Shown: positions 86 through 19,881 of the stretch, one piece after another
Numbering within the stretch: position 1 is the first letter of the stretch
How the letters are laid out: each line of letters opens with the position of its first letter
DNA from: Sphaerotilus hippei
GTDB lineage: Bacteria; Pseudomonadota; Gammaproteobacteria; Burkholderiales; Burkholderiaceae_C
NCBI RefSeq assembly: GCF_003201595.1
Contig: NZ_QJJS01000006.1
Span: 62,001 to 126,000, forward strand
DNA: 64,000 bases
Direction: 5' to 3'
Translations under genes and position numbers: made by a program
Notes under the pieces: generated by a model
What the model was told of the DNA's origin: nothing
Databases searched by the model: none
What the model saw: only the letters and a program-made list of their open reading frames with translations

Positions 86-165
86 GGGGGGGGCGGAGGA
101 TCGTGGGTGTGGATGATTCTAGGGGCGAGCGCCGGCCGGCGGGGCTGAATAGAATCCGGGCCACC

Positions 166-1050: not shown

Positions 1051-1063
1051 CCTCCTCTTCACC

Positions 1064-3096: not shown

Positions 3097-3131
3097 GTTC
3101 CGGGGCGGGCAGACCGGGTGGCCTGCGCCCT

Positions 3132-3659: not shown

Positions 3660-3712
3660 GGGTTCCTCTGGCGGTGACAGCGCGGGGCAAACGCGGTGCG
3701 CAAAACCTCGCA

Positions 3713-3718
3713 ATTATA
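3713..3718 (-). promoter_or_regulatory. Probable -10 element of the cytochrome c gene
   Basis: On the minus strand a perfect TATAAT lies at 3718-3713, 54 bases upstream of the cytochrome start codon. I see no convincing -35 at 16-18 bases, so only the -10 is proposed. Confidence 0.4.
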
Positions 3719-3768
3719 AGGGGCACCCCTGCTCGATGCGTGTTGCGTGCAGACCTCGCTCATATACC

Positions 3769-3777
3769 TGCTAGAAT
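3769..3777 (+). promoter_or_regulatory. Extended -10 promoter of tRNA-Arg
   Basis: TGCTAGAAT is an extended -10 (TGn plus TAGAAT). It ends 9 bases before the tRNA 5' end, so transcription would begin about 2-3 bases upstream of the mature tRNA. No clear -35 is visible, as is usual for extended -10 promoters. Confidence 0.5.
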
Positions 3778-3786
3778 GTGGATTCT

Positions 3787-3862
3787 GCGCCCGTAGCTCA
3801 GTGGATAGAGTATTGGCCTCCGAAGCCAAGGGTCGCTGGTTCGATCCCAGCCGGGCGCACCA
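3787..3862 (+). tRNA. tRNA-Arg (anticodon CCG), CCA end encoded
   Basis: The 76-base sequence folds as a complete cloverleaf. The acceptor arm GCGCCCG pairs with CGGGCGC. The anticodon stem TTGGC pairs with GCCAA around the loop CT-CCG-AA, giving anticodon CCG (3820-3822), which reads the arginine codon CGG. The T arm contains GGTTCGATCC and the 3' end is ACCA (3859-3862). A strong hairpin follows at 3888-3920. Confidence 0.97.
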
Positions 3863-3887
3863 CACGATGGTGTGCAAGCACCGCAGC

Positions 3888-3920
3888 AAAGCCTGATCCC
3901 GCCCCGCGTGATCAGGCTTT
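3888..3920. terminator. Bidirectional terminator between tRNA-Arg and the polyol operon
   Basis: An 11-bp perfect inverted repeat, AAAGCCTGATC (3888-3898) and GATCAGGCTTT (3910-3920), has an 11-base loop. On the plus strand it is followed by CTATCTT, which gives a terminator for the tRNA. On the minus strand the arm ends in three Ts just beyond the stop of the last gene of the 15-kb operon. Confidence 0.75.
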
Positions 3921-3948
3921 CTATCTTGTGGGGCCGCGTTGGCGGTGC

Positions 3949-4632
3949 TCAGCGGCGGGCCGCGCCAGCGCGCTCGATGCATTCGATGCTCAGCTCGCTC
4001 ATGTCGCCGATGCAGACGCCGGCCAGCGCCAGCACCTCGGGGGCGAGCGGGAACTCCGGCCCCGGCGCGGCCACGATGCCCATGCCGGCGGCCTTCAGCG
4101 AGCGGATGCCGTTGCCCGAATCCTCGATGCCCACCGCGTTCTGCGGCGCCACGCCGATCTTGGCCAGCACGTCGAGGTAGATGTCGGGCGCGGGCTTGCC
4201 GTGCACCACGTCGTCGCCGTAGGTGGCGGCGAGGAACACCCGGTCGAGGCCGGTGGCCTTCATCACGAACGTGGCCAGCTCATTGGGTGAGCCCGAGGCC
4301 AGCGCGACCTTGTACTTCGCGGCGATGCGGTGCACGGCGGCCACCGCGCCCGGACGCTCGGGCAGGTGCTGTTCGTACTTGCGCAGCAGCCGACCCTTGA
4401 TCTCGGCGGCGATGGCCGCGTCGTCCATGCCCAGGCGCTCCTGCAGCTGCAGGCGCTCGACCATCAGACGCGACCACATGCGGGTGTTGCAGCCCATGGT
4501 CGACTCCTGGTCCTCGGCCGACCAGACCAGGCCGTGGTCGGCCGCGAACTCCTCGCGGACCTGGCGCCACAGCACCTCCGAATCGATCAGGATGCCGTCC
4601 ATGTCGAAGACGACGGTGGTGATGGGGTTCAT
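3949..4632 (-). CDS. HAD class IA phosphatase, last gene of the polyol operon
   Basis: A 227-residue haloacid-dehalogenase phosphatase resembling beta-phosphoglucomutase and YniC-type sugar-phosphate phosphatases. All four motifs are visible: nucleophile D10 and acid/base D12 in FDMDG, Ser in ASGSPNE, Lys in GKPAPD and the Mg site in GIEDSGNG. A helical cap domain lies between about residues 15 and 90. The gene closes the minus-strand polyol operon, 54 bases after the class II aldolase gene, with GAGGAA upstream of its ATG. A likely role is removing phosphate from a dead-end or intermediate sugar phosphate; the substrate is not determinable. Confidence 0.85.
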   Translation of the reverse strand: MNPITTVVFDMDGILIDSEVLWRQVREEFAADHGLVWSAEDQESTMGCNTRMWSRLMVERLQLQERLGMDDAAIAAEIKGRLLRKYEQHLPERPGAVAAVHRIAAKYKVALASGSPNELATFVMKATGLDRVFLAATYGDDVVHGKPAPDIYLDVLAKIGVAPQNAVGIEDSGNGIRSLKAAGMGIVAAPGPEFPLAPEVLALAGVCIGDMSELSIECIERAGAARR

Positions 4633-4686
4633 GGGCTGGATTCCTCGGCGGTGGTGTGGTGTGGGGTGGGGTTCGGGGTGTCGGCG

Positions 4687-5745
4687 TCAGCGCACCTGCT
4701 GGCGCCTGAATTTCTCGGCCTCCCAGTCGGCGAGACCGCGGGCCTCGTCGTCGGGCAGGCAGACCGGGATCATGTCGGCGGGCAGGCGCGGCAGCACGTC
4801 GGCCAGGCAGGCCAGCATGTCCTGCGCACCTTCACCCAGGTCGTCGCGCACCAGCATGCCGCGCCCGGGCAGGGCGAGGCTGGCCGGGGTGTGCTCGCCG
4901 CGTTGCCGTTCGGACTGCAGCCACTGGCGCAGCGCGGTGTCGTCGTGCATCAGCCGCTGCGGCGCCGTGTGCTGCCGGGTGCCCAGGAAGACGACATGGT
5001 CCGGATAGAGCACGCCGGCGCGGGCCTGGGCCAGCTGCGCCGGGTCGGTGGCGATGCCGTGGCAGCGCTCGTGGGTCGGCAGCGCCCAGCCGGTGCCCTC
5101 GGCCAGCGTGCGCAGCGCCACGAGGTCGGCCGCGGGGGCGCGGCGCTGCGGACGGCGCAGCGCCGCCACGACGTGGTTCAAGCGGTCCTCGGCCTCGTCC
5201 GGCGTGGCGCCGCCCACCACCAGGCCGTGGTTGGCGAGCAGCAGCACGTCGACCTCGTGCCGGGCCATCACCGTCGCGACCGCCCGGGTCAGCGGCAGGC
5301 CCGGGCGGGCATAAGGCACCCAGGCCCAGCGCTGGCCGGCCAGCGGCATGCGCAGCCGCTGCTCGGCATCGGGCTGCACCGCCCACGCGATCGCCTCGAC
5401 CGCATGCACGTGCAGCACCACCGCATGGGGCATCAGCGCATGCAGCGTGGTCTCGATGGAGGGCCTCAGGCCGGGCGCGGCCCGCCCGGCCTGCAGCGCC
5501 GGCCCGACCGGGTCGGCCTCGCCCCCGGCCACCCGCCGGCGCACCTCGGCCAGATCGACGGGGGCGAACATCGGCCGGGCCAGCGCATCACGCAGCCACA
5601 GGCCGCTGGCCTTGACCCAGAGCGTGCGGCCTTCCTTGATCGAGGTGTTGCCCCCGGCGCCCTGGATCAGCAGCGGATCGGCACCGAGGCGGGCGGACAG
5701 CCGGGCGAGGGTGAGGCAGGCGGGGGTGTAGTCGGGCGAGTTCAT
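4687..5745 (-). CDS. Class II aldolase/adducin family protein (long form)
   Basis: A 352-residue class II aldolase. Metal-ligand histidines are visible as HVH in VVLHVHAVEAIAW and as the His in LLLANHGLVVGG; the probable catalytic Glu is in PSIETTLHALMPH. The N-terminal LLIQGAGGNTSIKEG loop is the phosphate-binding GNxS segment of the family. It is about 120 residues longer than the FucA-like aldolase in the same operon and resembles the aldolase half of the rhamnulose-phosphate aldolase/dehydrogenase fusions. It could cleave a ketose phosphate to dihydroxyacetone phosphate plus an aldehyde. Two class II aldolases in one operon is unusual. Confidence 0.85.
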   Translation of the reverse strand: MNSPDYTPACLTLARLSARLGADPLLIQGAGGNTSIKEGRTLWVKASGLWLRDALARPMFAPVDLAEVRRRVAGGEADPVGPALQAGRAAPGLRPSIETTLHALMPHAVVLHVHAVEAIAWAVQPDAEQRLRMPLAGQRWAWVPYARPGLPLTRAVATVMARHEVDVLLLANHGLVVGGATPDEAEDRLNHVVAALRRPQRRAPAADLVALRTLAEGTGWALPTHERCHGIATDPAQLAQARAGVLYPDHVVFLGTRQHTAPQRLMHDDTALRQWLQSERQRGEHTPASLALPGRGMLVRDDLGEGAQDMLACLADVLPRLPADMIPVCLPDDEARGLADWEAEKFRRQQVR

Positions 5746-5799
5746 GGTGGTGGCGCAGGCAGGCGTGAAGGTGGCGTGCAGGTGTGATGTGGCAGGGCC

Positions 5800-6675
5800 T
5801 CAGGCCCAGCGCAGCGTCGGCAGCGCCCAGGTGGGCGCCGGGGCGCCGTGGGCCGGCGGGCTGTCCAGCAGCCGGGCCAGCGTGGCCTCGGCGGGGGCGG
5901 CCGAGGCGAAGTCCGCGGCATGCAGGCCACCGGCGATGAAGCAGGTGTCGTAGCCGGCGCGGGCACCGCCGCCGATGTCGTGCTCCAGCGAGTCGCCGAT
6001 CGCGAGGAAGTGGCGTGAGCCCCAGCGCCCCAGCGCCTCGCGGCAGACGGTGTAGATCAGCGCATGCGGCTTGCCCAGCCACACGACCTCGCCACCCCGA
6101 TCGGCATGGCGCTGGGCCAGCGCACCGCTCGAGGGCTCGACGCCGCGGGCGCTCAGGCGCTGCCGGTCGGGGTTGGCGCAGATCAGCGGCAGGCCGCGGT
6201 CCAGCGCGAGGTCCAGCGCCGGGTGCAGCGCCTCGGCCGCCCCGGCCACGTCGGGCAGGCTGGCCAGCAGCACGAAGTCGGCCTGTGCGGGATCTTCCAC
6301 CGCCTCGAGGTCGAGGCCTTGCAGCGTGGGCCCGTCCTCGGCCGGATGGCCCAGCCAGACGCGCCGGCCGAGCGTGTCGAACGGTGCCCGGTCGCGCTGG
6401 CGCAGCATCTGGAACATCAGCTCGCCGGAGGTGATCAGCGCGTCGTAGTGCGCCGGCGTGACGCCGAAGCGGCTCAGCCGCTCGGCATTGGGCGCGGCCC
6501 GCTTGCCCGAGTTGCTCAGCACGATGACCCGCTTGCCACGTGCGCGCAGCTCACGCAGCGCCTCGGCCGCGCCGGGGTAGGGCGTGATGCCGTCGTGCAG
6601 CACGCCGAACTGGTCGATCACGTAGCCGTCGTAACGATCGGCCAGTGCCCCCAGGTGATCCAGCCACTGTGTCAT
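5800..6675 (-). CDS. HAD class IIA hydrolase (TIGR01459-like)
   Basis: A 291-residue class IIA HAD protein. Motif I reads VIDQFGVLHDG: the nucleophile D21 is present but the usual second Asp is Phe (F23). Motif II is VLSNSGK, the Lys is in WLGKPHALIY and motif IV is AIGDSLEHDI. In the subgroup I recall as TIGR01459 this position is normally Trp (DVWGVL), so loss of the acid/base Asp is a family trait. The start at 6675 overlaps the kinase stop as ATGA. The long C-terminal cap suggests a small phosphorylated substrate. Its role in polyol use is unknown. Confidence 0.8.
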   Translation of the reverse strand: MTQWLDHLGALADRYDGYVIDQFGVLHDGITPYPGAAEALRELRARGKRVIVLSNSGKRAAPNAERLSRFGVTPAHYDALITSGELMFQMLRQRDRAPFDTLGRRVWLGHPAEDGPTLQGLDLEAVEDPAQADFVLLASLPDVAGAAEALHPALDLALDRGLPLICANPDRQRLSARGVEPSSGALAQRHADRGGEVVWLGKPHALIYTVCREALGRWGSRHFLAIGDSLEHDIGGGARAGYDTCFIAGGLHAADFASAAPAEATLARLLDSPPAHGAPAPTWALPTLRWA

Positions 6676-7952
6676 GCCGCGGCCTCCGCGCCCTGGCGGG
6701 CCAGGCGGGCGACCCCCACCGCGGCCTCGTCCTGCGCCGGGGTGCACACCGGCACGCCCAGCAGGCGCTCGCGGATGCGGCCCCAGGCGGCATTGCGGGC
6801 CCCCCCGCCGACGCTGAACACCCGCCGCACCGGCGGGGCGCCCAGCTCGGCCATGCGCTGGAAGGCCAGTCGCTCCACGCCCGCCACGCCTTCGAGCAGG
6901 CCCTGGAAGAAGCGCAGGTCATCGGCCGGGCGGGGGTCGACGCGCGCCTGCAGCGCCGGGTCGTGGATCGGGAAACGCTCGCCCGGGCCGGGCAGCGGGT
7001 AGTAGTCCAGGCCGGTCGGGGTGTCCGGCTGCAGTCGTGGGGTCATCGCAAGCATCTGTTCGGTCGTGAAGAAGCGCAGCAGCGCCGCGCCGCCGCTGTT
7101 CGAGGCGCCGCCGGGCAGCCACAGGTCGCCCAGCCGGTGGCTGTAGAGGCCGAGGCGGGGCGCGAACACCGGCCGGTCGCTGAGCAGCTTGAGGACCAGC
7201 GTGGTGCCCAGCGAGCTGACCGCGTCGCCCACCTCGGTGGCGCCGGTGGCGAGGAACGCCGCCACGCCGTCGGTGGTGCCGGCGGCCACCACCACCTCGG
7301 GGCGCAGGCCGTGGCGCCGCGCCAGCGCCGGGTCGATGCGGCCGATCGGCGTGCCGGGCGGCCGCACCTCGGGCAGCAGCGCGCGGCGCACGCCGAGGCG
7401 GTCGAACCAGTCCGGCCAGCGGCGGTGCACCACGTCGTAGCCCAGCTTCAGCACGTTGTTCTCGTCGGAGACGCCATGGCGGGCGGCGAGCCGGCCGGCC
7501 AGCCAGTCGGCCTGGTGCAGCACATGGACGGCCTCGGGGTGCAGCGCCTGCAGGTGCAGCAGGCGGGCCAGCGGCGAGCTGCTGCCGTGGGCCGCGCTGT
7601 CCGGCGCGGCGGTGGCGGCCACCCGGGCGGCCTCGGCCACGCAGCTCGTGTCGTTGTACATCCAGCCGGCGCTCAGCGGCCGGCCGTCGGCATCGGCCAG
7701 CAGCAGCGTGCCCGAGGTGCCGTCCACCGCCAGCGCGGCCACCCGGGCGGGATCGATCAGGATCATCAGCTGAGCCAGCGTGCGATCGACGGCCTGCCAC
7801 CACAGCGCGGGATCCTGCGTCAGGCGCTGGCCGTCGCGCTCGGGCGGCGGCAGGGGCGTGCGGGCCCCGGCCGCCACCGTGCCGTCGGGGTCCACCGCCA
7901 CCGCGCGCACGCCGGAGGTGCCGACGTCGATCCCGACGAACAGGGCGCTCAT
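6672..7952 (-). CDS. FGGY carbohydrate kinase, D-ribulokinase-like
   Basis: A 426-residue FGGY-family kinase. It shows the N-terminal phosphate loop GIDVGTSGVRAVAVD, the DGTSGTLLL motif, SSLGTT, and the C-terminal adenosine motif GGGARNAAWG. The short length together with DGTSGT and MYND fits the D-ribulokinase-like group (SePSK/plant XK-1) better than XylB or AraB. It would phosphorylate a ketopentose or related ketose with ATP. It is coupled by ATGA overlaps both upstream (to a 23-codon ORF) and downstream (to the HAD IIA gene). GAGGTGAGG precedes the start. Confidence 0.85.
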   Translation of the reverse strand: MSALFVGIDVGTSGVRAVAVDPDGTVAAGARTPLPPPERDGQRLTQDPALWWQAVDRTLAQLMILIDPARVAALAVDGTSGTLLLADADGRPLSAGWMYNDTSCVAEAARVAATAAPDSAAHGSSSPLARLLHLQALHPEAVHVLHQADWLAGRLAARHGVSDENNVLKLGYDVVHRRWPDWFDRLGVRRALLPEVRPPGTPIGRIDPALARRHGLRPEVVVAAGTTDGVAAFLATGATEVGDAVSSLGTTLVLKLLSDRPVFAPRLGLYSHRLGDLWLPGGASNSGGAALLRFFTTEQMLAMTPRLQPDTPTGLDYYPLPGPGERFPIHDPALQARVDPRPADDLRFFQGLLEGVAGVERLAFQRMAELGAPPVRRVFSVGGGARNAAWGRIRERLLGVPVCTPAQDEAAVGVARLARQGAEAAA

Positions 7953-8020
7953 CGCCTCACCTCGAGCAGCGACGCCGAAGGACGGGTCCGCCGGCCCGGT
8001 GTCCGGTGCCGCGTGTTCAT
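7949..8020 (-). CDS. 23-codon ORF coupled to both neighbours
   Basis: Between the FucA-like aldolase gene (stop at 8017) and the ribulokinase-like gene (ATG at 7952) lies a 23-codon ORF. Its ATG (8020) overlaps the aldolase stop as ATGA, and its own TGA overlaps the kinase ATG as ATGA. The peptide begins MNTRHRTPGRR and is very basic, with no recognisable domain. It may be a translational-coupling leader that keeps ribosomes running into the kinase gene, a real small protein, or a chance ORF in a GC-rich spacer. Confidence 0.3.
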   Translation of the reverse strand: MNTRHRTPGRRTRPSASLLEVRR

Positions 8021-8718
8021 GCCGGCTCCTGCGCCGCCGCGGACTGGGCGTTGGCGCCGTAGCTGCGGAACGCGTCCAGCACGCGGTCCATCTCGTCGTC
8101 GGGCAGCAGCACCGGACCGCCGGTGCCCAGCGCGAGCAGGTACTGGTGCGCGAGCTGCTCCACCTCGATGGCCAGCGCGAAGGCCGAGCCCAGGTCGGCG
8201 CCGACGGCGATCATGCCGTGGTTGGCCAGCAGGCAGGCGCGCCGGTCGGCCAGTGCGGCCAGCGCATGGCGCGACAGGGTCTCGGTGCCGTAGGTCGCAT
8301 AGGGCGCGCAGCGGATGTCGCGCCCGCCGGCCACCGCCACCATGTAGTGGAAGGCCGGGATCCCGCGGCGCTGCACCGCCAGCGCGGTGGTGTGGGTGGG
8401 GTGGGCATGTACCACCGCGCCGACCTCGGGCCGGGCCAGGTAGATGTCGCGGTGGAAGCGCCATTCCGACGAGGGCTTCAGCGGCCCCTGCCAGGCGCCG
8501 TCGTGCAGCTGCACGAAGACGATGTCACCAGGCTGCAGGCGCCGGTAGTCCACGCCGCTGGGCGTGATCAGCATGCCCTCGCATCCCGCCTCCCGCCAGC
8601 GCACGCTGAGGTTGCCGGAGGTGCCCTGGGACAGTCCGCTGGGTGACAGGCTCAGTGCATGCGCCACCAGGGCGGCGCGGTGGGTGGAGGCGTCGGCGGG
8701 GTCGTGGGTCGTGGTCAT
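8017..8718 (-). CDS. Class II aldolase, L-fuculose-phosphate aldolase-like
   Basis: A 233-residue zinc aldolase of the FucA/AraD family, close to the usual family length. The phosphate-binding segment is GTSGNLSVR, the catalytic Glu is in KPSSEWRFH, and the zinc ligands are HAH in VVHAHPTH plus the later His in LLANHGMIAVG. Such enzymes split ketose 1-phosphates into dihydroxyacetone phosphate and an aldehyde (glycolaldehyde from ribulose 1-phosphate, lactaldehyde from fuculose 1-phosphate). Its ATG overlaps the stop of the GlpD-like gene as ATGA, so aldolase and flavoprotein are made together. That suggests it cleaves the ketose phosphate the flavoprotein produces. Confidence 0.88.
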   Translation of the reverse strand: MTTTHDPADASTHRAALVAHALSLSPSGLSQGTSGNLSVRWREAGCEGMLITPSGVDYRRLQPGDIVFVQLHDGAWQGPLKPSSEWRFHRDIYLARPEVGAVVHAHPTHTTALAVQRRGIPAFHYMVAVAGGRDIRCAPYATYGTETLSRHALAALADRRACLLANHGMIAVGADLGSAFALAIEVEQLAHQYLLALGTGGPVLLPDDEMDRVLDAFRSYGANAQSAAAQEPA

Positions 8719-10481
8719 GGTTGCGCTCCGGTGGTGCGGCCGCAGGCCGCGTCCAGCGCGGCCCGTTCGGCGTGGATCAGGTCGCGGTAGGCCTGCAGCT
8801 GCGCCTCGGTCTGCGCGGCCGTCCAGCCCAGCAGCGGGGCGATCAGCGTGGCGGCCGTCGTGGCCAGGGACAGGCCGCCGTCACGCTGCTCGATCGACAG
8901 GTGGGTGCGCCGCACCAGCACGTCGGCCAGCGAGCGCGCGCCTTCGGCCATCACCGCGTGCACCAGCTCGGCCGCGAGGTACTGCGGGGCGCCCTCGAGC
9001 GGACGGCCCAGCGCGGGGTCGCTGCCGGCCAGCGCCAGCACCTCGTCGATGCGGTCGCCGTGGCGGGCCAGCAGCAGCTTCACCGTCGACGGGGGCAGCC
9101 GGTGCTGCCGGGCGATCTCGTCGGCGCGTGCCAGCGTCTCGGGCCAGCGCTGGGCCCCCAGCAGCGGCAGCCGGTCGGTGCACGACGGGGTGTCGATGCC
9201 CAGCGGGGCGAGCGCGGCATCCACCGCGTCCATCGCCATGCGCCGGTAGGTGGTGTACTTGCCGCCGACCACCGTGGTCAGGCCGGGCGGCCCGGTCAGC
9301 ACCGCATGGTCACGCGACAGCGCCGAGGTGCTGTCCACCCCGTCCACCGGCTTGAGCAGCGGGCGCAGGCCGGCGAAGGTGCCCAGCACGTCGTCGGCCG
9401 TGACCGGCCGGGCGAGGTAGCGGTTCAGGTTGTCGAGCAGGTAGTCGATGTCCGCCCGCTCGGCCACCGGGCGGGACTTGTCCTTCTGCCAGGGCGTGTC
9501 GGTGGTGCCGACCAGCCAGTAGCCGTACCAGCGGCGCGCGATGATCACCGAGTCGGTGGCCCGCGCCAGGATGCCGGCCTGCGACTGGATCGCCTCCGGG
9601 CGCAGCAGCAGGTGCACGCCCTTGGCGGGCTGGACCCGGAAGGTGTTGGCGCCGGCCCGCTGCTGCAGCTCGTCGGCCCAGATGCCGCCGGCGTTGATCA
9701 CCGCCCGTGCCCTCAGCACGTGGCGCTGCCCGTCGTCCCGGTCCTGCACGACCACGCCGCCGACCGTCCCCGCCGTGTCCCGGATGAAGTCGACCACCGG
9801 CGTGCCCGTCAGCACCCGCGTGCCCAGGCCGGCGGCGGTGCGCACGACGGCCAGCGTGTGGCGGGCGTCGTCCATCAGCGCGTCGTAGTACTGGATGCCG
9901 CCGACCACCCGACGCTCGTCGATGGACGGGATGTGGGCCTTCAGCCCGCGGCGGCCGAAATGCCGTTGCCGCGGCACCGCCCGGCCCTTCAGGCCGAACA
10001 GGTCGTAGAGCAGCACGCCCGCGCCCACGTAGGGCCGCTCCCACTGGTGGCTGAGCGGGTAGACGAAGGGCTCGGGCCAGGCCATGTGCGGGCACAGGGT
10101 CTTGACCATCAGGTCCCGCTCGGCGATGGCGTGGGCCACCAGCTTGAAGTTGAGCTGCTCCAGGTAGCGCAGGCCGCCGTGGAAGGCCTTGCCCGAGCGC
10201 GACGAGGTGCCGATGGCCAGGTCGCCGGCTTCCACCAGCACCACCTTCAGGCCGCGCGCGGCGGCATCCAGCGCCGCCCCCGCACCGGTCACGCCGGCAC
10301 CGATCACCAGCACGTCGGCGATGCCGGCGGCGGCGTCGGCCAGGTCGCGGGCCCGCTGGGCGGGGTGGAGCCGGGTGCGGTCGTCGACACCGGTGCGGCC
10401 GGCCGGGCCGGCGGCGCTGGCGGCCGGCCGGCCGGACGACGGCGATGCCTCCAGGGGGGAGCGGTTCAGGGCGGTGGTCAC
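8715..10481 (-). CDS. GlpD/EryB-like FAD polyol-phosphate dehydrogenase
   Basis: A 588-residue flavoprotein of the glycerol-3-phosphate dehydrogenase family. The FAD dinucleotide loop is VLVIGAGVTGAGAALDAA (about residues 57-74) and the family signature SSRSGKAFHGGLRYLE follows. GlpD itself feeds electrons to quinone at the inner membrane face. In the erythritol loci of rhizobia and Brucella the homologue EryB oxidises erythritol phosphate, and the neighbouring EryA- and EryD-like genes favour that kind of role here. The start is GTG 10481, five bases past the previous stop. The N-terminus carries about 45 extra residues rich in Ala, Ser and Arg. Confidence 0.88.
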   Translation of the reverse strand: MTTALNRSPLEASPSSGRPAASAAGPAGRTGVDDRTRLHPAQRARDLADAAAGIADVLVIGAGVTGAGAALDAAARGLKVVLVEAGDLAIGTSSRSGKAFHGGLRYLEQLNFKLVAHAIAERDLMVKTLCPHMAWPEPFVYPLSHQWERPYVGAGVLLYDLFGLKGRAVPRQRHFGRRGLKAHIPSIDERRVVGGIQYYDALMDDARHTLAVVRTAAGLGTRVLTGTPVVDFIRDTAGTVGGVVVQDRDDGQRHVLRARAVINAGGIWADELQQRAGANTFRVQPAKGVHLLLRPEAIQSQAGILARATDSVIIARRWYGYWLVGTTDTPWQKDKSRPVAERADIDYLLDNLNRYLARPVTADDVLGTFAGLRPLLKPVDGVDSTSALSRDHAVLTGPPGLTTVVGGKYTTYRRMAMDAVDAALAPLGIDTPSCTDRLPLLGAQRWPETLARADEIARQHRLPPSTVKLLLARHGDRIDEVLALAGSDPALGRPLEGAPQYLAAELVHAVMAEGARSLADVLVRRTHLSIEQRDGGLSLATTAATLIAPLLGWTAAQTEAQLQAYRDLIHAERAALDAACGRTTGAQP

Positions 10482-10485
10482 GGCA

Positions 10486-11544
10486 TCAGCTCGGGTTCAG
10501 TGCCGGTTCACCGGCGACATGGCGGCGCAGCTCCTCGGCCACCATGCCGGCGGCCACCTTCACCGTCTGCAGCGAGGCGCCGGCGATGTGCGGGGTCAGC
10601 GTCACGTTGGGGTGCTGCAGCAGCGGATCGGCCGGATCGCAGGGCTCGACGCCGAAGGTCTCGAGCCCGGCGCCGCGCAGGTGGCCGCTCTGCAGCGCGG
10701 CGTGCAGGTCGGCGTAGTCGACCATCGGGCCGCGCGCGGTGTTGATGAAGTAGGCGCCGGGTTTCATCCGCGCGAAGGCCGCCGCGTTCATGAAGCCGGT
10801 GGTCTCGGGCGTGACCCGCGCGTGCAGCGAGACGATGTCGCTGCGCGCCAGCAGCGTGGCCAGGTCCACCTGCTCGACCCCGGCCTCGCGGTCGGTGTCG
10901 TCCAGGCTCACGTAGGGGTCGCAGACCAGGATGCGGCAGCCGAAGGGCCGCAGCAGCTTGGTCACCTTGGTGCCGATGTGGCCGTAGCCGATCAGGCCGA
11001 CGGTCTGGTTGCACAGCTCCTCGCCGGTGAGGTCGGCGCGGTAGAGATCGCCGCGCCACTGGCCGGCCTTCAGCGACACGTGGCCCTTGGTGATCAGCCG
11101 CGTCTCGGCCAGGATCATGCCGATGGTGAACTCGGCCACCGCGCTGGCGTTGCGCCCGGGGGCGTTGACCACCTTGACGCCCCGCTCGCGGGCGGCCTTC
11201 ATGTCGATGTTGACCGGCCCGCCGCGCGACACCGCCACCAGCCGCAGCCGCGGGCAGCGGTCGAGCATGCTGCCCGTCAGCGGCGACAGGTGGGTGACCA
11301 GCACGTCGGCCTCGCCGATGAAGGCGGCCATCTCGGCCGGGTCGCCCAGGTACTCCCTGAGGCCCTGCAGGTCCGGGTGGGCGGCCTCGGCGCCGTAGCC
11401 GTGGGCCATCGGCGTGTCGGGCCAGTCGAGCTCGAGCGAGCGGATCTCCAGCGCGGTGTCCGGCAGCGCGGCCCGCAGCGCGTCCTCGAAGAAGTGCGCC
11501 TTCATGAAATGGTCGCCGATCACGGCCACTTGCAGTCTTGTCAT
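10486..11544 (-). CDS. D-2-hydroxyacid dehydrogenase (NAD-dependent)
   Basis: A 352-residue protein of the D-3-phosphoglycerate dehydrogenase/D-2-hydroxyacid dehydrogenase family. The NAD loop is VGLIGYGHIGTKV with the acidic residue in ILVCDPY, which suggests NAD rather than NADP. The catalytic triad is visible as Arg in NTARGP, Glu in GLETFGVEP and His in TPHIAGAS. There is no ACT domain, so it is not a regulated SerA. It begins four bases after the stop of the EryA-like kinase gene. It might handle a hydroxy- or keto-acid made from the polyol or from glycolaldehyde; this is inference. Confidence 0.85.
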   Translation of the reverse strand: MTRLQVAVIGDHFMKAHFFEDALRAALPDTALEIRSLELDWPDTPMAHGYGAEAAHPDLQGLREYLGDPAEMAAFIGEADVLVTHLSPLTGSMLDRCPRLRLVAVSRGGPVNIDMKAARERGVKVVNAPGRNASAVAEFTIGMILAETRLITKGHVSLKAGQWRGDLYRADLTGEELCNQTVGLIGYGHIGTKVTKLLRPFGCRILVCDPYVSLDDTDREAGVEQVDLATLLARSDIVSLHARVTPETTGFMNAAAFARMKPGAYFINTARGPMVDYADLHAALQSGHLRGAGLETFGVEPCDPADPLLQHPNVTLTPHIAGASLQTVKVAAGMVAEELRRHVAGEPALNPS

Positions 11545-11548
11545 GGGG

Positions 11549-13165: not shown

Positions 13166-13170
13166 GGCGT

Positions 13171-14322
13171 TCAGCGCAGGTCGGTGCCGTGCACCAGCGC
13201 CAGCTCGCTGTCGCTGTCGAACAGGTGCAGCGCCTGCAGCGGCAGGCCCAGCGTCACCGGCTGGTCGGCATCGACGTCGACCGCGCCGTCGGTGACCACC
13301 AGCAGCGTGTGGCCGCCCAGGTCGATGCCCACATGGCTCTGGTCGCCCTGCCACTGGTTGAAGGCGAGCGTGCCGCGGGCCGCCTGCGTGCCCGCCGGAC
13401 TGTGGCCCAGCACCACCTTGTGCGGCCGCACGCCCAGGTGCACCTTCTGGCCCTCGTGCAGCGCGGCGGCCGGGTGGATCCGGTCGAGCGCACCGAAGCT
13501 CACGCGCAGCGCCTCGCCGGAGCCGGCCTGCGCGGCGACCACCGCGCACAGCTGGCCGTCGCGCAGCGACAGCCGCGCGGGCATCAGGTTCATCGCCGGC
13601 TCGCCGATGAAGCCGGCCACGAACAGGTTGGCCGGCCGCTCCTTCAGGTCGGCGGGCGAGGCGAACTGCTGCAGCACACCGTTGCTCATCACCGCGATGC
13701 GGTCGCTCAGCGCCACCGCCTCGGTCTGGTCGTGGGTGACGAAGACCGAGGTCATCCGGTGCTCGATCAGGTACTCCTTGATGCGCCCGCGCAGCACCGC
13801 GCGCAGCTGCGGCTCGAGCTGCGACATCGGCTCGTCGAGCAGGTAGAGATCGGCGTCGCGCACCAGCGCGCGCGCCAGGCTGACCCGCTGCTGCTGGCCG
13901 CCCGACAGCGTCGGCGGGTAGGCCTGCAGGATGTCGGTGATCTCGAGCAGCTCGGCCACGTGGCGCACCCGCCGCGTCACCTCGGCGCGTGGCACCTTGT
14001 TGCGCAGCAGGCTGAAGGCGATGTTGTCCGACACCGTCAGCGGCGGGTAGAGCGCATAACCCTCGAAGGCCATCGCCACGTTGCGCTCGGCCGGCTTGAG
14101 CTGGTTGATGACCCGGTCGCCGATGCGGATCGCCCCTTCGCTGACCGACTCGAAGCCGGCGATCATGCGCAGCGTGCTGGTCTTGCCGCAGCCCGACGAG
14201 CCGAGCAGGGAGATGATCTCGCCATCGTGGATGGCCATGTTGACGGACTTGACCGCACGGTTGCCGGTCTTGCCTTTGTCCCCGTAGATCTTGCTGACCT
14301 GTTCGAGGGTGACGGATGCCAT
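13171..14322 (-). CDS. ABC importer ATPase 1 (Q-loop Gln replaced by Glu)
   Basis: A 383-residue MalK/UgpC-like ATPase with a C-terminal regulatory (TOBE/OB) domain from about residue 240. Walker A is GSSGCGKTS, the signature LSGGQQQR, Walker B LYLLDEP and the H-loop VTHDQTEA, all canonical. The Q-loop, normally FQ in this family, reads AFEGYALYP: the Gln that senses the gamma-phosphate and couples to the permease is Glu. It is paired with the unlike ATPase encoded just upstream (14347-15432), as in the two-ATPase GlpS/GlpT-type glycerol importers. It starts 25 bases after that gene. Confidence 0.9.
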   Translation of the reverse strand: MASVTLEQVSKIYGDKGKTGNRAVKSVNMAIHDGEIISLLGSSGCGKTSTLRMIAGFESVSEGAIRIGDRVINQLKPAERNVAMAFEGYALYPPLTVSDNIAFSLLRNKVPRAEVTRRVRHVAELLEITDILQAYPPTLSGGQQQRVSLARALVRDADLYLLDEPMSQLEPQLRAVLRGRIKEYLIEHRMTSVFVTHDQTEAVALSDRIAVMSNGVLQQFASPADLKERPANLFVAGFIGEPAMNLMPARLSLRDGQLCAVVAAQAGSGEALRVSFGALDRIHPAAALHEGQKVHLGVRPHKVVLGHSPAGTQAARGTLAFNQWQGDQSHVGIDLGGHTLLVVTDGAVDVDADQPVTLGLPLQALHLFDSDSELALVHGTDLR

Positions 14323-14346
14323 GGTCGGCTCCTGGTGCTGAAGGGT

Positions 14347-15432
14347 TTACAGGCGCGCGCCGGTGGCGCGGTCGAAGAACATCGTGCGGCCGGCGCTCAG
14401 GTGCGCGAAGCCGGGGATGCGTTCGCGGGTGCCGGCCAGCTCGGTGTCCTCGGGCCGGCTGGCCAGGATCTCCGTGCCGCTGCCGGCCTTGAGCAGCGTG
14501 ATGGTGCGCACGTTGAAGGGCATGACCGCCTCCAGCGCCACCGGCATCGCGCCGGGGGCCGCCTGGGTGCTGAACACCACGTCCTCCGGGCGCACGCCCA
14601 GCACGCAGGGCTGGCCCTCGAGGTCGGGGCGGGCATCGGGCAGCACCAGCGTCTGGCCGCCGATGTCCACCGTCTGGCCGGCGCCGCCGGCGCGTGGCGT
14701 GACCTCGAACAGGTTGATCGGCGGATCACCGAACAGGCGGGCCACCTCCCGGGTGCGCGGGTTGCGGTAGATGCCCGAGGGCGAGTCGATCTGCTGGAAG
14801 CGGCCGTTCACCAGCACGCCGATGCGGTCGCCCAGCGCCAGCGCCTCGCGGTAGTCCTGCGTCACGTAGAGCACCGTGGAGCCGAAGGCCTTGAACAGCT
14901 TCGGGAACTCCAGCCGCATCTCGAAGCGGATCTTGGCGTCGACGTTGCGCAGCGGGTCGTCCAGCAGGATCACCGGCGGCTTGTGCACCAGGCTGCGGCC
15001 CAGCGAGGTGCGCTGCTTCTGGCCGTTGCTGAGCTGCTTGGGCAGGTGGCTCAGCACATGATCGATGCGCAGCAGCCGCGCCACCTCCTGCACCCGGTTG
15101 ACGATCTCGGCCTCGCCCATCCGGCGCGCGCGCAGCGGGCTGGCGATGTTCTCGAACGCCGTCATGTGCGGGTAGAGCGCGAAGTTCTGGAAGGCCATCG
15201 CCACGCCGCGGGCCTCGGGGCCCACGTCGCCGAGGTCCTGGCCGCCCAGCGAGATGCTGCCGGCGTCGGGCTCCATCACGCCGGCGATGTGGCGCAGCAG
15301 CGTGGTCTTGCCCGAGCCCGAGCCGCCGAACACCACCAGGCATTCGCCCTTGCGCACCTCGAGGTCCAGGCCGTCGAGCACCTGCTTCTTGCCGAAGGCC
15401 TTGCTCAGGCCGGAGAGTTTCAGATAGGACAT
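14347..15432 (-). CDS. ABC importer ATPase 2 (degenerate signature, Walker B and H-loop)
   Basis: A 361-residue MalK-like ATPase. Walker A (GGSGSGKTT) and the Q-loop (AFQNFALYP) are intact. The signature reads LSNGQ instead of LSGGQ, the residue after Walker B is Asp (LLDDP) instead of the catalytic Glu, and the H-loop His is Gln (VTQDYREA). I checked each codon in the DNA. A TOBE-like C-terminal domain is present. With ATPase 1 it would form a heterodimer in which one composite site lacks both catalytic Glu and His. ATG 15432 starts MSYLKLSGL; the upstream frame extension overlaps the permease gene. Confidence 0.9.
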   Translation of the reverse strand: MSYLKLSGLSKAFGKKQVLDGLDLEVRKGECLVVFGGSGSGKTTLLRHIAGVMEPDAGSISLGGQDLGDVGPEARGVAMAFQNFALYPHMTAFENIASPLRARRMGEAEIVNRVQEVARLLRIDHVLSHLPKQLSNGQKQRTSLGRSLVHKPPVILLDDPLRNVDAKIRFEMRLEFPKLFKAFGSTVLYVTQDYREALALGDRIGVLVNGRFQQIDSPSGIYRNPRTREVARLFGDPPINLFEVTPRAGGAGQTVDIGGQTLVLPDARPDLEGQPCVLGVRPEDVVFSTQAAPGAMPVALEAVMPFNVRTITLLKAGSGTEILASRPEDTELAGTRERIPGFAHLSAGRTMFFDRATGARL

Positions 15433-15458
15433 GGGGTCGTTCTCCAGGGGGCTCACGG

Positions 15459-16313
15459 TCAGCCCTTGACGGCGCCGAGGCTCAGGCCTTCGACGAGGTA
15501 GCGCTGCGCGAACATCGCGATCGTGGCGGTGGGGATGACGCTGAGCATCAGCGCGGCGGCGATCTGGCCGTACTGGATGCCCGAGGCGGTGATGAAGGCC
15601 ATCGCGCCCACCGTCACCGGCTGCACCGACGACGAGCCCAGGATCAGCGCGAAGACGAAGTTGTTCCACGCGAAGATGAAGCTCAGCAGCCCGGCTGCCG
15701 CGATGCCGGGGCCGGCCAGCGGAATGGCGATCTTGATGAAGCTGCTGAACCAGCTGTGGCCGTCGAGCCGGTAGGCGTGCTCGATGTCTGGGCTGATGTC
15801 CTCGAAGTAGCCCCGCACGATCCACAGGATCAGCGGCAGCGTGATCAGCTGGTAGACCCAGATCAGGCCGATGTAGGTGTCATACAGACCGATCTCCTGG
15901 AAGTACAGCTGCAGCGGCAGCAGCACCAGGATGGGCGGCGCGAAGCGGAAGCTCAGCAGCGTGAAGGCGATGTCCTCGCCCAGCTTGAACTTGAAGCGCG
16001 CGAAGGCGTAGGCCGCCGGCACGCCCAGGATCAGCGACAGCAGCACCGAGGCGCTCGACAGCAGCAGGCTGTTGCCGAGGTTCTTGATGTAGTCGCTGGT
16101 GAGCGTGCCCACGTCGGTCTTGAGCTCGCCGCGGATCAGCGAGCTGTAGTTGTCCAGCGTGGCATCGAAGGCCAGGCTGGGCGTGGAGCGCAGGATGTCC
16201 TGGTTCGTCATGAAGCTCATCAGGAGCACCCAGACGAAGGGGAAAAGGAAGAAGAGGCCGACGACGGTGAGTGCGGACACTCGACCGATGCGCAGCAGGG
16301 TGGCGGTGTTCAT
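15459..16313 (-). CDS. ABC sugar/polyol permease (MalG-type)
   Basis: A 284-residue inner-membrane permease with about six hydrophobic segments, the first at about residues 13-32. The cytoplasmic EAA loop appears as AYRLDGHSWFSSFIKIAIP (about residue 185), where the ATPases dock. It is the second of two permeases and resembles the CUT1 MalG/UgpE class, whose members form a heterodimeric channel. The gene ends 26 bases before the start of ATPase 2. Confidence 0.92.
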   Translation of the reverse strand: MNTATLLRIGRVSALTVVGLFFLFPFVWVLLMSFMTNQDILRSTPSLAFDATLDNYSSLIRGELKTDVGTLTSDYIKNLGNSLLLSSASVLLSLILGVPAAYAFARFKFKLGEDIAFTLLSFRFAPPILVLLPLQLYFQEIGLYDTYIGLIWVYQLITLPLILWIVRGYFEDISPDIEHAYRLDGHSWFSSFIKIAIPLAGPGIAAAGLLSFIFAWNNFVFALILGSSSVQPVTVGAMAFITASGIQYGQIAAALMLSVIPTATIAMFAQRYLVEGLSLGAVKG

Positions 16314-16346
16314 GCGATGGGTCCTGTGGAGCGGTGTCGGGCGCGG

Positions 16347-17273
16347 TCAGGCCTGACCGCGCGCACGCTGGCGCAGCTTCAGCCAGTGCTTGATGAACGC
16401 GGTGGAGAGCGCGTAGGTGATGGCCCACAGGATCAGCACCAGCGCGGCGGACTTGCCGATGTTGCTGAAGCTGAAGGCCTCCAGGTAGGCCTGCACCTGG
16501 AACACGGTGAGCGAGTCGCCCGGGCCGCCCTGGGTCATCGAGTAGATGATGTCGAACTGCTGGATCGAGTCGAGCATGCGGAACATGCCCGCCGTCAGGA
16601 TGTAGGGCGCCAGCATCGGCAGCGTGATGCGGAAGAACACGAAGCTGGCGGGCACGCCGTCGAGCTCGGCCGCCTCGAAGGGCTGGCGGGGCAGGGCGCG
16701 CAGGCCGGCCAGCAGCAGCACGATGATGAAGGGCGTGTAGACCCAGGTGTCCACCAGCACCACGGTGAACATCGCGCTCTCGGGGCGGGAGGACCAGCCG
16801 AAGTCCGGGATGCCGACCAGGCCCAGCAGCCAGTTCAGCACGCCGAAGCCGGGGTTGGTCATCAGCTTCCACATCAGGCTGGCGATGGCCGGGGCGACCA
16901 TCAGCGGCAGGATCAGCAGCACGCTCATCACGTTGTTGAAGCGGCTGCGCTGCTGCAGCAGCAGCGCGATGCCCAGGCCCAGCAGCAGCTGGATGCCCAC
17001 GGTGGCCACGGTGTAGGTGAGCGAGGCGCGCACCGTGTTCCAGAACGCCTCATCGGTGAACAGGCTGATGTAGTTGTCGAACCAGACGTAGGCCCGCTGG
17101 TCCGGGAAGGACAGGTTGTAGCGCTGGAACGAGTAGCCGACCGCGGTGAAGAAGGGGATGAGGATGCCGATGCACACCAGCAGCGCGGGCAGGCTCAGCA
17201 GATAGGGCAGCACCGACTGCAGGCGCAGCGCACGGCGCGGCTTCGGGCTGGTGGAGAGGGGCAATGTGGACAC
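16347..17273 (-). CDS. ABC sugar/polyol permease (MalF-type)
   Basis: A 308-residue inner-membrane permease of the CUT1 MalF/UgpA class with six predicted membrane segments and the EAA loop EAAELDGVPASFVFFRITLP. The start is GTG at 17273, supported by AAGGGAGG eight bases upstream. It lies about 160 bases downstream of the binding-protein gene, with a strong hairpin between them, which fits the usual excess of binding protein over membrane subunits. Confidence 0.92.
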   Translation of the reverse strand: MSTLPLSTSPKPRRALRLQSVLPYLLSLPALLVCIGILIPFFTAVGYSFQRYNLSFPDQRAYVWFDNYISLFTDEAFWNTVRASLTYTVATVGIQLLLGLGIALLLQQRSRFNNVMSVLLILPLMVAPAIASLMWKLMTNPGFGVLNWLLGLVGIPDFGWSSRPESAMFTVVLVDTWVYTPFIIVLLLAGLRALPRQPFEAAELDGVPASFVFFRITLPMLAPYILTAGMFRMLDSIQQFDIIYSMTQGGPGDSLTVFQVQAYLEAFSFSNIGKSAALVLILWAITYALSTAFIKHWLKLRQRARGQA

Positions 17274-17392
17274 GGTGGGGCCTCCCTTGCGGGCGCAGTG
17301 GAGCGCGCCCGGCCCGGGCGGGCGAGGCGGAGCTCGGACAGAGGAGAAGGACGCCAGCCGGCGCCGGAACCGGGTCGGCTGGCAAGGGAGAG

Positions 17393-17416
17393 GCTGCGGC
17401 CGCGATCGGCCGCAGC
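17393..17416. other. Intercistronic hairpin after the binding-protein gene
   Basis: A 10-bp perfect inverted repeat, GCTGCGGCCG (17393-17402) and CGGCCGCAGC (17407-17416), has a 4-base loop. It starts about 20 bases past the stop of the binding-protein gene and has no T-run. In ABC operons such structures usually protect the binding-protein mRNA from 3' decay or attenuate transcription, which would set a high ratio of binding protein to permease. Confidence 0.6.
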
Positions 17417-17436
17417 AGGCCCCCTGGTCAGCGTGC

Positions 17437-18876
17437 TCAGGCCAAGCCGACGTCCTTGAGCTTGCGGGTCAGCGTCTGGGCCAGCTTGTCCAGGCCTTCG
17501 TCGACAGGGATCTGGCCGCCGTACATCTGCTGCAGCATCGCCGCCCACTCGGTGGTGAACTCGGGGAAGAGCTGCTGCGGCGTGAAGTGGATCTTCGAGT
17601 TGGCGATCGAGTCCTGGTACTGCTTCAGGTAGCCCGGGTAGGTCTTCTCCAGGCGCTGCTGGAACTCGGGGTTGGCCCAGACCGACTTGCGGATCGGGTT
17701 GACCAGGTCACCCTTGGTGGCGCCGAAGGTGGTGTTGTCGGTGCCGGTGGCCCACTGCATGAAGAACCAGGCGGCTTCCTTCTGCTTGGAGAACTCGCTC
17801 ATCGCCAGCGACCAGATCCAGATGTTGGGCGTCGGTGCCTTGGCCTCGGGGTTGGGCGTGAAGCCGCTGAAGGCCAGGTTGCCGGCTTCCTTGTTGGAGC
17901 CGCCGTTCATGAAGTAGCCCAGGATGTCGGCGTCGTAGATCATGGCCGACTGGCCGGCGCCCAGGTCGTTGCCGACCTCGTACCAGGTGTAGTTGGTCCA
18001 GTTCTTCGGGCCGCCGTTCTTCAGCATGTCGATCCACAGCTTGTGGAAGGCCTTGCTGCCGGCCGAGTTCATCGCCGGCACCAGCTTGCCGCCGTTGTTG
18101 CTGAAGTCCTTGCAGCCGTAGTTGGTGTAGCCCGACAGGAAGCCCGCGTGGATGGTGGCCCACGAGCGCGAGCCGCGCACGCCCACGCCGTACATCTTGC
18201 CGCCCTTGCTGATGGCCTTGGCCTTGTCGACCAGGTCGGGCAGGCTGGTGGGCGCCTTCATGCCCATGCCGTCGAGCACCTTCTTGTTGTAGGTCAGCGA
18301 GTTGAGCTCGAAGCCCCAGGGCAGCGCCCACTGCTTGGAGCCGGCCGCACCCAGCTGCGAGCCGGCCTTGCCGTCCCAGGCGGTCGAGGTGCGCAGGCCT
18401 TCGTAGATGTCGTCCCACTGGAAGGCGTCGGACGTCAGCTTCGGATCCTTCAGGAACACGTTCAGGTCGACGATCTGGCGCGCAGGGCCGTACTTCCAGG
18501 TCTGGTAGGCGCCGGTCATGAAGGCGTCGTACTGGCTGCTCTTGCTGGCCAGCGCGGCGGTGACCTTGTCGAAGTAGACGTCCTCCGGAAAGATGTCGTA
18601 GGTGACGTTCAGGCCGGTCAGGGCCTTGAAGTTGTCGAGGTTCTTCAGCATCGCATCCACGTAGGGATGCTTGTTGAGCAGCAGCTTGATGGTGCGGCCC
18701 TTGTGCTTCTGGAAGTCCACGCCGCCGGCGGCCAGCGCGTCGGTGGCCACGCCGTTGAGGGCCAGGCTCGCCGCGGTGGCGCTGAAGCCCATCACGGTGG
18801 CACGGGACAGGAACTCGCGACGACCCAGCCGGTTCTCGTGGCAGGACCGGGCCAGTGCCTTCAATGCTTCGGACAT
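17437..18876 (-). CDS. Tat-exported ABC binding protein for a polyol/sugar
   Basis: A 479-residue type 1 extracellular solute-binding protein. The N-terminus has a twin-arginine motif, GRREFLS at residues 18-24, then a hydrophobic stretch and an Ala-rich cleavage region (DALAAGG), so export is by Tat in folded form. The mature part shows the family's aromatic-rich binding features (GAYQTWKYGPARQ, WALPWGFELNSLTYN). ATG 18876 has GAGGAGA upstream and was chosen over the longer frame. It follows the regulator gene by 45 bases. The ligand is probably a polyol, judged only from the operon. Confidence 0.92.
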   Translation of the reverse strand: MSEALKALARSCHENRLGRREFLSRATVMGFSATAASLALNGVATDALAAGGVDFQKHKGRTIKLLLNKHPYVDAMLKNLDNFKALTGLNVTYDIFPEDVYFDKVTAALASKSSQYDAFMTGAYQTWKYGPARQIVDLNVFLKDPKLTSDAFQWDDIYEGLRTSTAWDGKAGSQLGAAGSKQWALPWGFELNSLTYNKKVLDGMGMKAPTSLPDLVDKAKAISKGGKMYGVGVRGSRSWATIHAGFLSGYTNYGCKDFSNNGGKLVPAMNSAGSKAFHKLWIDMLKNGGPKNWTNYTWYEVGNDLGAGQSAMIYDADILGYFMNGGSNKEAGNLAFSGFTPNPEAKAPTPNIWIWSLAMSEFSKQKEAAWFFMQWATGTDNTTFGATKGDLVNPIRKSVWANPEFQQRLEKTYPGYLKQYQDSIANSKIHFTPQQLFPEFTTEWAAMLQQMYGGQIPVDEGLDKLAQTLTRKLKDVGLA

Positions 18877-18921
18877 GTCTTTGTCTCCTCGTTGTACTGT
18901 CAAAGCGAAACGCTGATCCGT

Positions 18922-19881
18922 TCAGCGCGACGCGGCTTGCGGGTGAAGCACCTGACGGGCAGTGGCCTCATCCACGATCAGAGCGGTGATCACACCGCTA
19001 CGCAGCACGGCGCGGATCGCGTCGGCCTTGTACTTTCCGCCTGCCACCGCGAGCACGTCGCGTCCGCGCAGGTCATCGAGCGAGGCGCCGACGGCACGCT
19101 CGTTCATCTCGCTGTCCACCAGCCCGCCCTCGGCGGTCATGAAACGCCCGGCCAGCTCGCCCACGGCACCGGCGCGAGTCAGGCGCTGGCGCTCCTCCAG
19201 CGTCACCGAGTGGCTGCGCTGCAGGTGGGTCCTGGGGCCGAGTTCGCCCACGCCCACCACGCACAGCTGGCACTCGCGGATCATCTCGAAGACATGCTGC
19301 ACGCCGCTCTGCGCGCGCAGCACCTGGGCGTCGGCGCCGCTGTCGGCGATGAAGGGCACGGGCAGGAAGAAGCACTCGCCGCCGGTGCGTTCGGCCAGCC
19401 GGGCGATCACGTCGTAGGGGTTGGCGGCCGAGCTGCGCGTCAGGCTGCCCAGCAGCGACACGAAACGGGTGTCGGGCAGGTTCATCCGCGGCATGCGGTC
19501 GACCATCGCCGCCAGCGTGCGGCCGTGGCCGATGCCGACCGACTTCAGCGTGCCGCTCTCCAGCTCGCGGCAGAGGTAGCGGGCACCGGCCACGGCCAGC
19601 GCGGCGATCTCGTCGCCCGGGGCCTCGTCGTCATGCGTCGTGGGCACGACCACGCAGCGCTTCAGGCCGAAGGCCTTCATCAGCTCGTCTTCCAGCGCCA
19701 TGCAGTCCGCCGGCACGCCCTCGACCCAGAACTTCACCATGCCGCTCTGCATCGCCGAGGCGATCAGGCGCTGGGCCTTGATGCGCGAGACGCCCAGGCG
19801 CTCGGCGATCTGCTCCTGGGTGTAGCCGCCCACGTAGGCCAGCCAGGCGGCGCGGATCGACAGGCTCTGTTCGTTGTCCAT
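18922..19881 (-). CDS. SorC/DeoR-family regulator, EryD-like
   Basis: A 319-residue sugar-binding regulator. Residues about 20-45 form a helix-turn-helix (YTQEQIAERLGVSRIKAQRL). The rest is the SorC-type effector domain related to sugar-phosphate isomerases, with GIGHGRTLAAMVDRMP and VGVGELGP. It resembles EryD, repressor of erythritol genes in Brucella and rhizobia. It is the first gene of the operon, 45 bases before the binding-protein gene, so it probably controls its own expression through the repeats at 19894-19929. The effector is likely a phosphorylated intermediate of the pathway. Confidence 0.88.
   Translation of the reverse strand: MDNEQSLSIRAAWLAYVGGYTQEQIAERLGVSRIKAQRLIASAMQSGMVKFWVEGVPADCMALEDELMKAFGLKRCVVVPTTHDDEAPGDEIAALAVAGARYLCRELESGTLKSVGIGHGRTLAAMVDRMPRMNLPDTRFVSLLGSLTRSSAANPYDVIARLAERTGGECFFLPVPFIADSGADAQVLRAQSGVQHVFEMIRECQLCVVGVGELGPRTHLQRSHSVTLEERQRLTRAGAVGELAGRFMTAEGGLVDSEMNERAVGASLDDLRGRDVLAVAGGKYKADAIRAVLRSGVITALIVDEATARQVLHPQAASR

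Follow-up and report, generated by a model that had tools for sequence, protein, structure and literature searches.

Geddes, Hausner and Oresnik (2013; PMC3599248) surveyed the loci for the catabolism of erythritol, adonitol and L-arabitol. MptABCDE and EryA of Sinorhizobium meliloti are used for each of these polyols, while lalA-rbtABC serve adonitol and L-arabitol. Category 3 loci, which lack eryC, eryR and tpiB, were described from Bradyrhizobium BTAi1 and ORS278, Acidiphilium and the beta-proteobacterium Verminephrobacter. Here we analyse an operon from Sphaerotilus hippei, located in a stretch of 64,000 nucleotides (contig NZ_QJJS01000006.1, positions 62,001 to 126,000; hereafter the window), where it spans 19881 to 3949 of the minus strand. 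In our reading (probability about 0.68), the operon would serve the uptake and breakdown of pentitols, chiefly ribitol (adonitol) and L-arabitol, and perhaps of erythritol; it would be a variant, probably gained by horizontal transfer, of the polyol locus of Sinorhizobium type, with EryD-MptABCDE-EryA-RbtA-FucA1-LalA-RbtB-RbtC but no EryC, EryR or TpiB. The gene set is already described as a locus type; what is unusual is one displaced core enzyme, as the EryB of the locus is replaced by a GlpD of the actinobacterial type.

The open reading frame (ORF) listing and family scans assign 14 ORFs to known families, in agreement with the initial annotation, which had recognised fourteen genes on one strand, among them two each for FGGY kinases, class II aldolases and HAD proteins. 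The first gene encodes an EryD-like SorC/DeoR-type sugar-binding regulator of 319 amino acids (aa) (18922..19881; Sugar-bind PF04198, E 3.3e-69; 44-46% identity to the locus regulators of Sinorhizobium, Gemmobacter and Shinella). The transporter genes comprise an MptA-like solute-binding protein (SBP) of the SBP_bac_1 family (17437..18876; PF01547; 54-56% to proteins of the same three genera over at least 90% of the length), the MptB-like (16347..17273; 67-69%) and MptC-like (15459..16313; 68-72% full-length in three loci, and 58 + 80% in the two pieces of Ak57) permeases, and the UgpC/MalK-type ABC ATPases resembling MptD (14347..15432; 51-55%) and MptE (13171..14322; 50-52%). They are followed by an EryA-like FGGY polyol kinase of 538 aa (11549..13165; 47-51% identity with the EryA proteins of four named loci and at most 57% in the genome scan), an RbtA-like D-2-hydroxyacid dehydrogenase (10486..11544; 60-63%), and a putative GlpD-type FAD polyol-phosphate dehydrogenase in the EryB slot (8715..10481, with the true start within 10313-10481). 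The likeness of the regulator and of one kinase to EryD and EryA, proposed from the letters alone, is thus borne out. Spacers of 4-5 bp separate the second ATPase from the first kinase, this kinase from the dehydrogenase, and the dehydrogenase from GlpD (with the GTG start at 10481 used), the SBP-permease spacer is 163 bp, and all remaining junctions measure 24-64 bp, apart from 4-bp ATGA overlaps at GlpD-FucA and kinase2-HAD-IIA; the "many" ATGA couplings reported initially come down to these two. A promoter and terminator scan of 3700-4100 returned nothing.

In the plasmid collection, tblastn matches to the SBP and to the 352-aa aldolase of the operon fall in shared Sinorhizobium records, separated by approximately 10 kb. 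In S. meliloti Ak57, the genes encode, in order, a sugar-binding regulator, SBP, two permeases, two ATPases, a kinase and a 2-hydroxyacid dehydrogenase, followed by a class II aldolase, glycerol-3-phosphate dehydrogenase, a further class II aldolase, FGGY kinase, HAD protein, sugar-phosphate isomerase/epimerase, DeoR regulator, triose-phosphate isomerase and RpiB; the SBP, second permease and HAD protein are unannotated in the record and were located by blastp. By elimination, this order fits the names eryD, mptABCDE, eryA, rbtA, fucA1, eryB, lalA, rbtB, rbtC, eryC, eryR, tpiB and rpiB, i.e. 17 genes, as counted in PMC3599248. Eleven operon genes have counterparts with 37-80% identity (blastp) in the loci of Ak57 and NGR234 alike: the regulator (44-45%), SBP (53-56%), permeases (58-80%), ATPases (51-55%), EryA (47-48%), RbtA (61-62%), RbtB (50-53%), LalA (45-46%) and RbtC (37-44%), the lowest and highest values stemming from genes read in two pieces in Ak57. 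FucA has a 50% match in Ak57 and no homologue in the NGR234 locus, which agrees with the published account. As the homologues of 11 operon genes recur together in other loci, the cluster is not a product of chance.

The initial annotation likened the flavoprotein to EryB; by descent it is not an EryB. Its identity to EryB is 32.7-35.8% in three named loci (33-34% in Ak57 and NGR234) and at most 38% for other EryB proteins. Within the plasmid collection and 399 family genomes, its closest relatives are actinobacterial, with 49.7% identity to a Tsukamurella GlpD whose gene adjoins glpK; the best match in another family genome reaches 42%. In a tree of 49 sequences the flavoprotein groups, on a long branch, with proteins of Tsukamurella, Nonomuraea and Embleya (support 100/96), and its placement inside the EryB clade is rejected by the approximately unbiased (AU) test (p 4.9e-44), at a cost of 147 log-likelihood units. 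The identification as EryB was therefore abandoned on the low identity, the position in the tree and the AU test.

From a bacterial genome scan with an EryA alignment, the best 80 of 563 relatives were compared; 63 of these loci had a length of at least 21 kb, and the locus counts refer to them. No beta-proteobacterium was recognised among the 80 record titles, so lineages nearer to S. hippei fall outside this survey. EryB was present in 63/63 loci, and none of the 63 had a GlpD with at least 36% identity to the operon flavoprotein; in some loci a further gene of the GlpD family is present, which is more distant (28-31% identical) and belongs to a separate branch of the tree. The Bradyrhizobium loci L091, L110 and L112, related to the category 3 ones, likewise have EryB. 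MptA was found in 46 of the 63, and RbtA in all 46 of these and in none of the 17 without MptA. Near the MptA loci were LalA (25), RbtB (14), RbtC (13) and FucA (9), none of which occurred near the other 17. FucA was commoner in the MptA loci without EryC (8/15) than in those with it (1/31; Fisher p 1.9e-4, 46 loci).

On an Aminobacter plasmid (L030:13962-19464), lalA-, rbtB- and rbtC-like genes lie directly beside rhaI, rhaM and a gene for a FucA-like aldolase, and the lalA-rbtB-rbtC module also exists outside mpt loci. An Azospirillum relative of the 352-aa aldolase (L031:13986-15059) is encoded next to an NTP transferase in a region for polysaccharide synthesis; genes for a phosphoribulokinase/uridine kinase and a HAD protein follow at some distance. 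Four Halomonas loci (L036, L056, L066, L073) combine EryD-EryA-EryB with a TpiB-like gene and have no Mpt; Halomonas is not named in the 2013 survey, as far as the sections used here go (PMC3599248). In Shinella (L029:12928-22911), the regulator, Mpt, EryA, RbtA and FucA are present, with no EryB or LalA within 29 kb.

Starting from the gene set, its homologies, the displaced EryB and the conserved catalytic residues, we infer each substrate, product and stereochemical step of the following scheme. A polyol would be imported by MptABCDE and phosphorylated at one end by EryA, whose substrates erythritol, adonitol and L-arabitol have a common stereochemistry over three carbons (PMC3599248). The GlpD-type flavoprotein, in place of EryB, would then oxidise the carbon adjoining the phosphate. 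Since oxidation would fall next to the phosphate, ribitol would give D-ribulose-1-phosphate (3R,4R, the FucA type) and L-arabitol would give L-xylulose-1-phosphate (3R,4S, the L-rhamnulose-1-phosphate type), as read from Fischer projections. E. coli FucA and RhaD produce 3R ketose-1-phosphates (PMC10733421). The FucA-type aldolase may cut D-ribulose-1-phosphate, and the RhaD-related LalA may cut L-xylulose-1-phosphate, in both cases to dihydroxyacetone phosphate (DHAP) and glycolaldehyde. The route from polyol through polyol phosphate and ketose phosphate to aldol cleavage, outlined in the initial annotation, thus appears likely from the protein families. RbtA might, as a guess, reduce glyoxylate or hydroxypyruvate after the oxidation of glycolaldehyde.

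Both aldolases retain residues expected of their family. The FucA1-like protein (8017..8718; 49-51% identity with the FucA-like proteins in related loci; match to E. coli FucA with E 4.3e-55) keeps the histidine triad, which we take to bind zinc, and the Glu and Tyr that are presumably catalytic. The LalA-like protein of 352 aa (4687..5745; 45-46% identity with the proteins at the lalA position in three named loci) consists of a RhaD-related N-terminal half and a C-terminal part; its N-terminus fits models of bifunctional aldolase/dehydrogenases (e.g. TIGR02632 RhaD_aldol-ADH, E 2.7e-19), all below their cut-offs, and Glu98, His112, His114 and His173 are invariant across 23 sequences. Its AlphaFold model (mean predicted local distance difference test score, pLDDT, 91.2) has an N-terminal class II aldolase fold with an extra C-terminal part, and in the fold search the best solved matches were 3m4r (the nearest) and FucA-type aldolases, with template modelling (TM) scores of 0.31-0.46 by query length.

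We also propose a bypass, in which a phosphatase would free D-ribulose and the RbtB-like FGGY kinase (6672..7952; 50-53% to rbtB-position kinases) would make D-ribulose-5-phosphate; the choice of phosphatase is uncertain. The best solved-structure match of RbtB is 5htn (E 1.5e-97), which we take to be SePSK; residue positions agree once shifted by 2. Of five compounds, SePSK is reported to respond most strongly to D-ribulose, and it is described as a D-ribulose kinase (PMC4880283); the homology of RbtB to it supports the conversion of D-ribulose-1-phosphate through D-ribulose to D-ribulose-5-phosphate. Asp8, Thr11, Ser72 and Asp221 of SePSK are kept in RbtB as Asp9, Thr12, Ser80 and Asp228, and Ser222 is replaced by Gly. 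A role of the second kinase on a free ketose, as suggested initially, therefore gains support from the family assignment. The two HAD proteins are an RbtC-like HAD-IIA protein (5800..6675; TIGR01459, E 5e-52, passing the cut-off; 37-44% to rbtC-position proteins) and, at the end of the operon, an HxpB-like HAD-I phosphatase-like protein (3949..4632; PRK10826, E 3e-32, below the cut-off). The latter has the usual motif I (DMDG) in its translation, and its gene has a counterpart in 0 of the 80 compared loci.

By gene content the operon resembles the category 3 loci: family scans detect no EryC, EryR or TpiB in it. The absence of eryC, tpiB and rpiB noted from the letters holds for the operon; genome-wide queries, which were made for EryC and TpiB only, gave no EryC match (in a search run without a positive control) and a single 39% match to TpiB on another contig (C9). 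The published identity cut-offs (PMC3599248) are 65% for EryB, which every locus of that survey carries, 56% for MptA, 51% for RbtB, 50% for RbtA, 49% for LalA, 44% for EryD and 40% for RbtC, and our comparison with them used Ak57, NGR234 and others as references in place of Rm1021. RbtA exceeds its cut-off with 60-63%, and homologues of EryD (44-46%), MptA-E (50-80%) and EryA (47-51%) are all present. As the EryB criterion was applied and the flavoprotein lies far below it, we do not file the operon as a strict member of the mpt-type loci.

A number of observations weigh against assignment to the Sinorhizobium type and against the scheme attached to it. In the cut-off comparison, EryB is clearly too distant (33% versus 65%) and LalA is below the limit (45-46% versus 49%); EryD (44-46% versus 44%), MptA (54-56% versus 56%) and RbtB (50-53% versus 51%) lie close to their limits, and the values for RbtC fall on both sides of its own (37-44% versus 40%). 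The mapping of lalA, rbtA, rbtB and rbtC onto genes rests on order and elimination. In S. meliloti fucA1 is reported to be dispensable for all three polyols, and the sections of PMC3599248 used here hold no statement that EryB acts on pentitol phosphates and do not spell out the reactions catalysed by LalA and RbtA-C. Replacement of EryC by FucA as a rule was discarded, the survey offering only 2-4 independent pairs and no significance after relatedness was considered. Identity of LalA with RhaD by fold was likewise rejected, RhaD being absent from the best 50 of 77 matches with E <= 0.001. Motif I of the rbtC-position HAD protein reads D-Q-[FYW]-G, without the second Asp, in the operon RbtC and in 16 of 16 relatives. 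In HAD phosphatases this second Asp of motif I (DxD) is required, and a phosphatase role for RbtC is therefore doubtful. Finally, family scans found no aldehyde dehydrogenase among the 14 operon genes.

Among the other explanations, a new polyol pathway distinct from the known ery/mpt/rbt loci, and probably for another polyol, is unlikely. The operon shares only moderate identity (37-80%) with the compared loci, the second half of the operon is ordered differently, an extra HAD gene is present and the flavoprotein is no orthologue of EryB; however, eleven genes, including the regulator and all five transporter components, have homologues in the known loci, with the first eight genes in the same order. 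The initial annotation had proposed a pathway different from the described one, and had named a characterised operon with the same genes and known substrates as the finding that would speak against it; the mpt/ery/rbt/lal locus of Sinorhizobium, as described in PMC3599248, comes close to being such an operon and has nearly the same gene set. We regard as similarly improbable the fuller version of our own scheme, in which the actinobacterial-type GlpD was recruited for EryB and oxidises pentitol phosphates within a two-armed ketose-1-phosphate pathway with two stereochemically matched aldolases, and erythritol would be processed without EryC by cleavage of D-erythrulose-1-phosphate to DHAP and formaldehyde, a reaction known in the other direction from the synthetic erythrulose monophosphate pathway and here occurring naturally. 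A literature search, with most subscription journals outside its scope, revealed no polyol locus using ribulose-1-phosphate or L-xylulose-1-phosphate beyond PMC3599248; the enzyme-level route may already be in print.

Slightly less probable still is that the GlpD retains sn-glycerol-3-phosphate as its substrate and that glycerol or compounds resembling it are handled by the operon as well. The actinobacterial relatives of the protein, one encoded beside glpK, point in this direction, as does an alignment in which it keeps the conserved stretches of the E. coli and Bacillus-type GlpD, some of whose residues presumably bind substrate. Against this, a second GlpD of the genome (51% to EryB) is encoded on contig C5, where genes for a GlpR-like regulator and for UgpC-like ATPases adjoin it, and the first kinase of the operon, 47-51% identical to EryA, scores better against xylulokinases than against glycerol kinases. 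A deoxy-sugar or rare-ketose pathway around a lalA-rbtB-rbtC-fucA module, as the Aminobacter neighbourhood of rhamnose genes might suggest, is very improbable, as no isomerase or mutarotase occurs among the 14 genes and the relatives of the transporter, EryA and EryD sit in polyol loci.

The operon is rare in the lineage of S. hippei. Of 399 family genomes, 3 had an EryA match (E <= 1e-90), its own included; of the other two matches, one belongs to a locus that has true EryB and EryC, and one lies on a 3.2-kb contig; the SBP (E <= 1e-60) occurred in its own genome alone among 274 class genomes. The 352-aa aldolase (E <= 0.001) had matches in 23 of 200 family genomes, of which, besides its own, one extended over most of the length (38%). 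The family genome G648 (L147) has EryD-EryA-EryB-EryC with TpiB and a true EryB (71%). Each of the 13 genus genomes searched, that of S. hippei included, has a match to the left flank (window 1-3900). In 10 of the 12 others the alignment stops at 3863-3868, just past a plus-strand tRNA-Arg(ccg) (3787..3862) that adjoins the 3' end of the operon; in the remaining two it breaks at 3042-3043, with the remainder elsewhere. No operon match was found in the 15-18 kb past the tRNA of three relatives. Because the flank alignment ends at the tRNA and these three relatives show no operon match beyond it, 3787-3868 looks like a variable insertion site. The last 14 bases of the tRNA have no exact copy elsewhere in the window or in the 39.8 kb downstream, and an island bounded by tRNA-derived repeats was rejected on this ground. 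The composition shows no shift, the G+C content at third codon positions being 0.91-0.98 both in the operon and in six other window genes. Horizontal acquisition at a variable site is probable; the pattern fits transfer, though neither a repeat nor an integrase was demonstrated.

If this is correct, a distant GlpD can take the place of the core flavoprotein in a polyol pathway, and lalA and rbtABC, whose chemistry is not set out in the sections of PMC3599248 used here, receive a concrete enzyme-by-enzyme reading. The wider finding is ordinary, the operon being by kind a member of a described locus type. The eryABCD-eryEFG operon of Brucella and Rhizobium leguminosarum shares EryA- and EryD-related proteins with it, but has another transporter and EryB with EryC, and is without LalA, RbtA, RbtB and RbtC; in Brucella a fructose-bisphosphate aldolase gene adjoins rpiB (PMC3599248). 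The eryABCD-tpiB erythritol pathway needs EryC, named as D-erythrulose-1-phosphate 3-epimerase, which had no match in this genome. The second FGGY kinase has homologues in the SePSK and AtXK-1 kinases. The category 3 loci, compared here by their published description, share the absence of eryC, eryR and tpiB and the retention of mpt, lalA and rbtABC, but, unlike the operon, were scored with EryB at the 65% cut-off. Compared with the locus of S. meliloti and S. fredii, the operon is without eryC, eryR, tpiB and rpiB, has a GlpD of another branch for EryB and an extra HAD-I gene, and has its fucA, lalA and rbtBC genes reordered, whereas the regulator, five transporter components, EryA, RbtA, FucA1 (in S. 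meliloti only), LalA, RbtB and RbtC have homologues in both, and the order of the first eight genes is the same.

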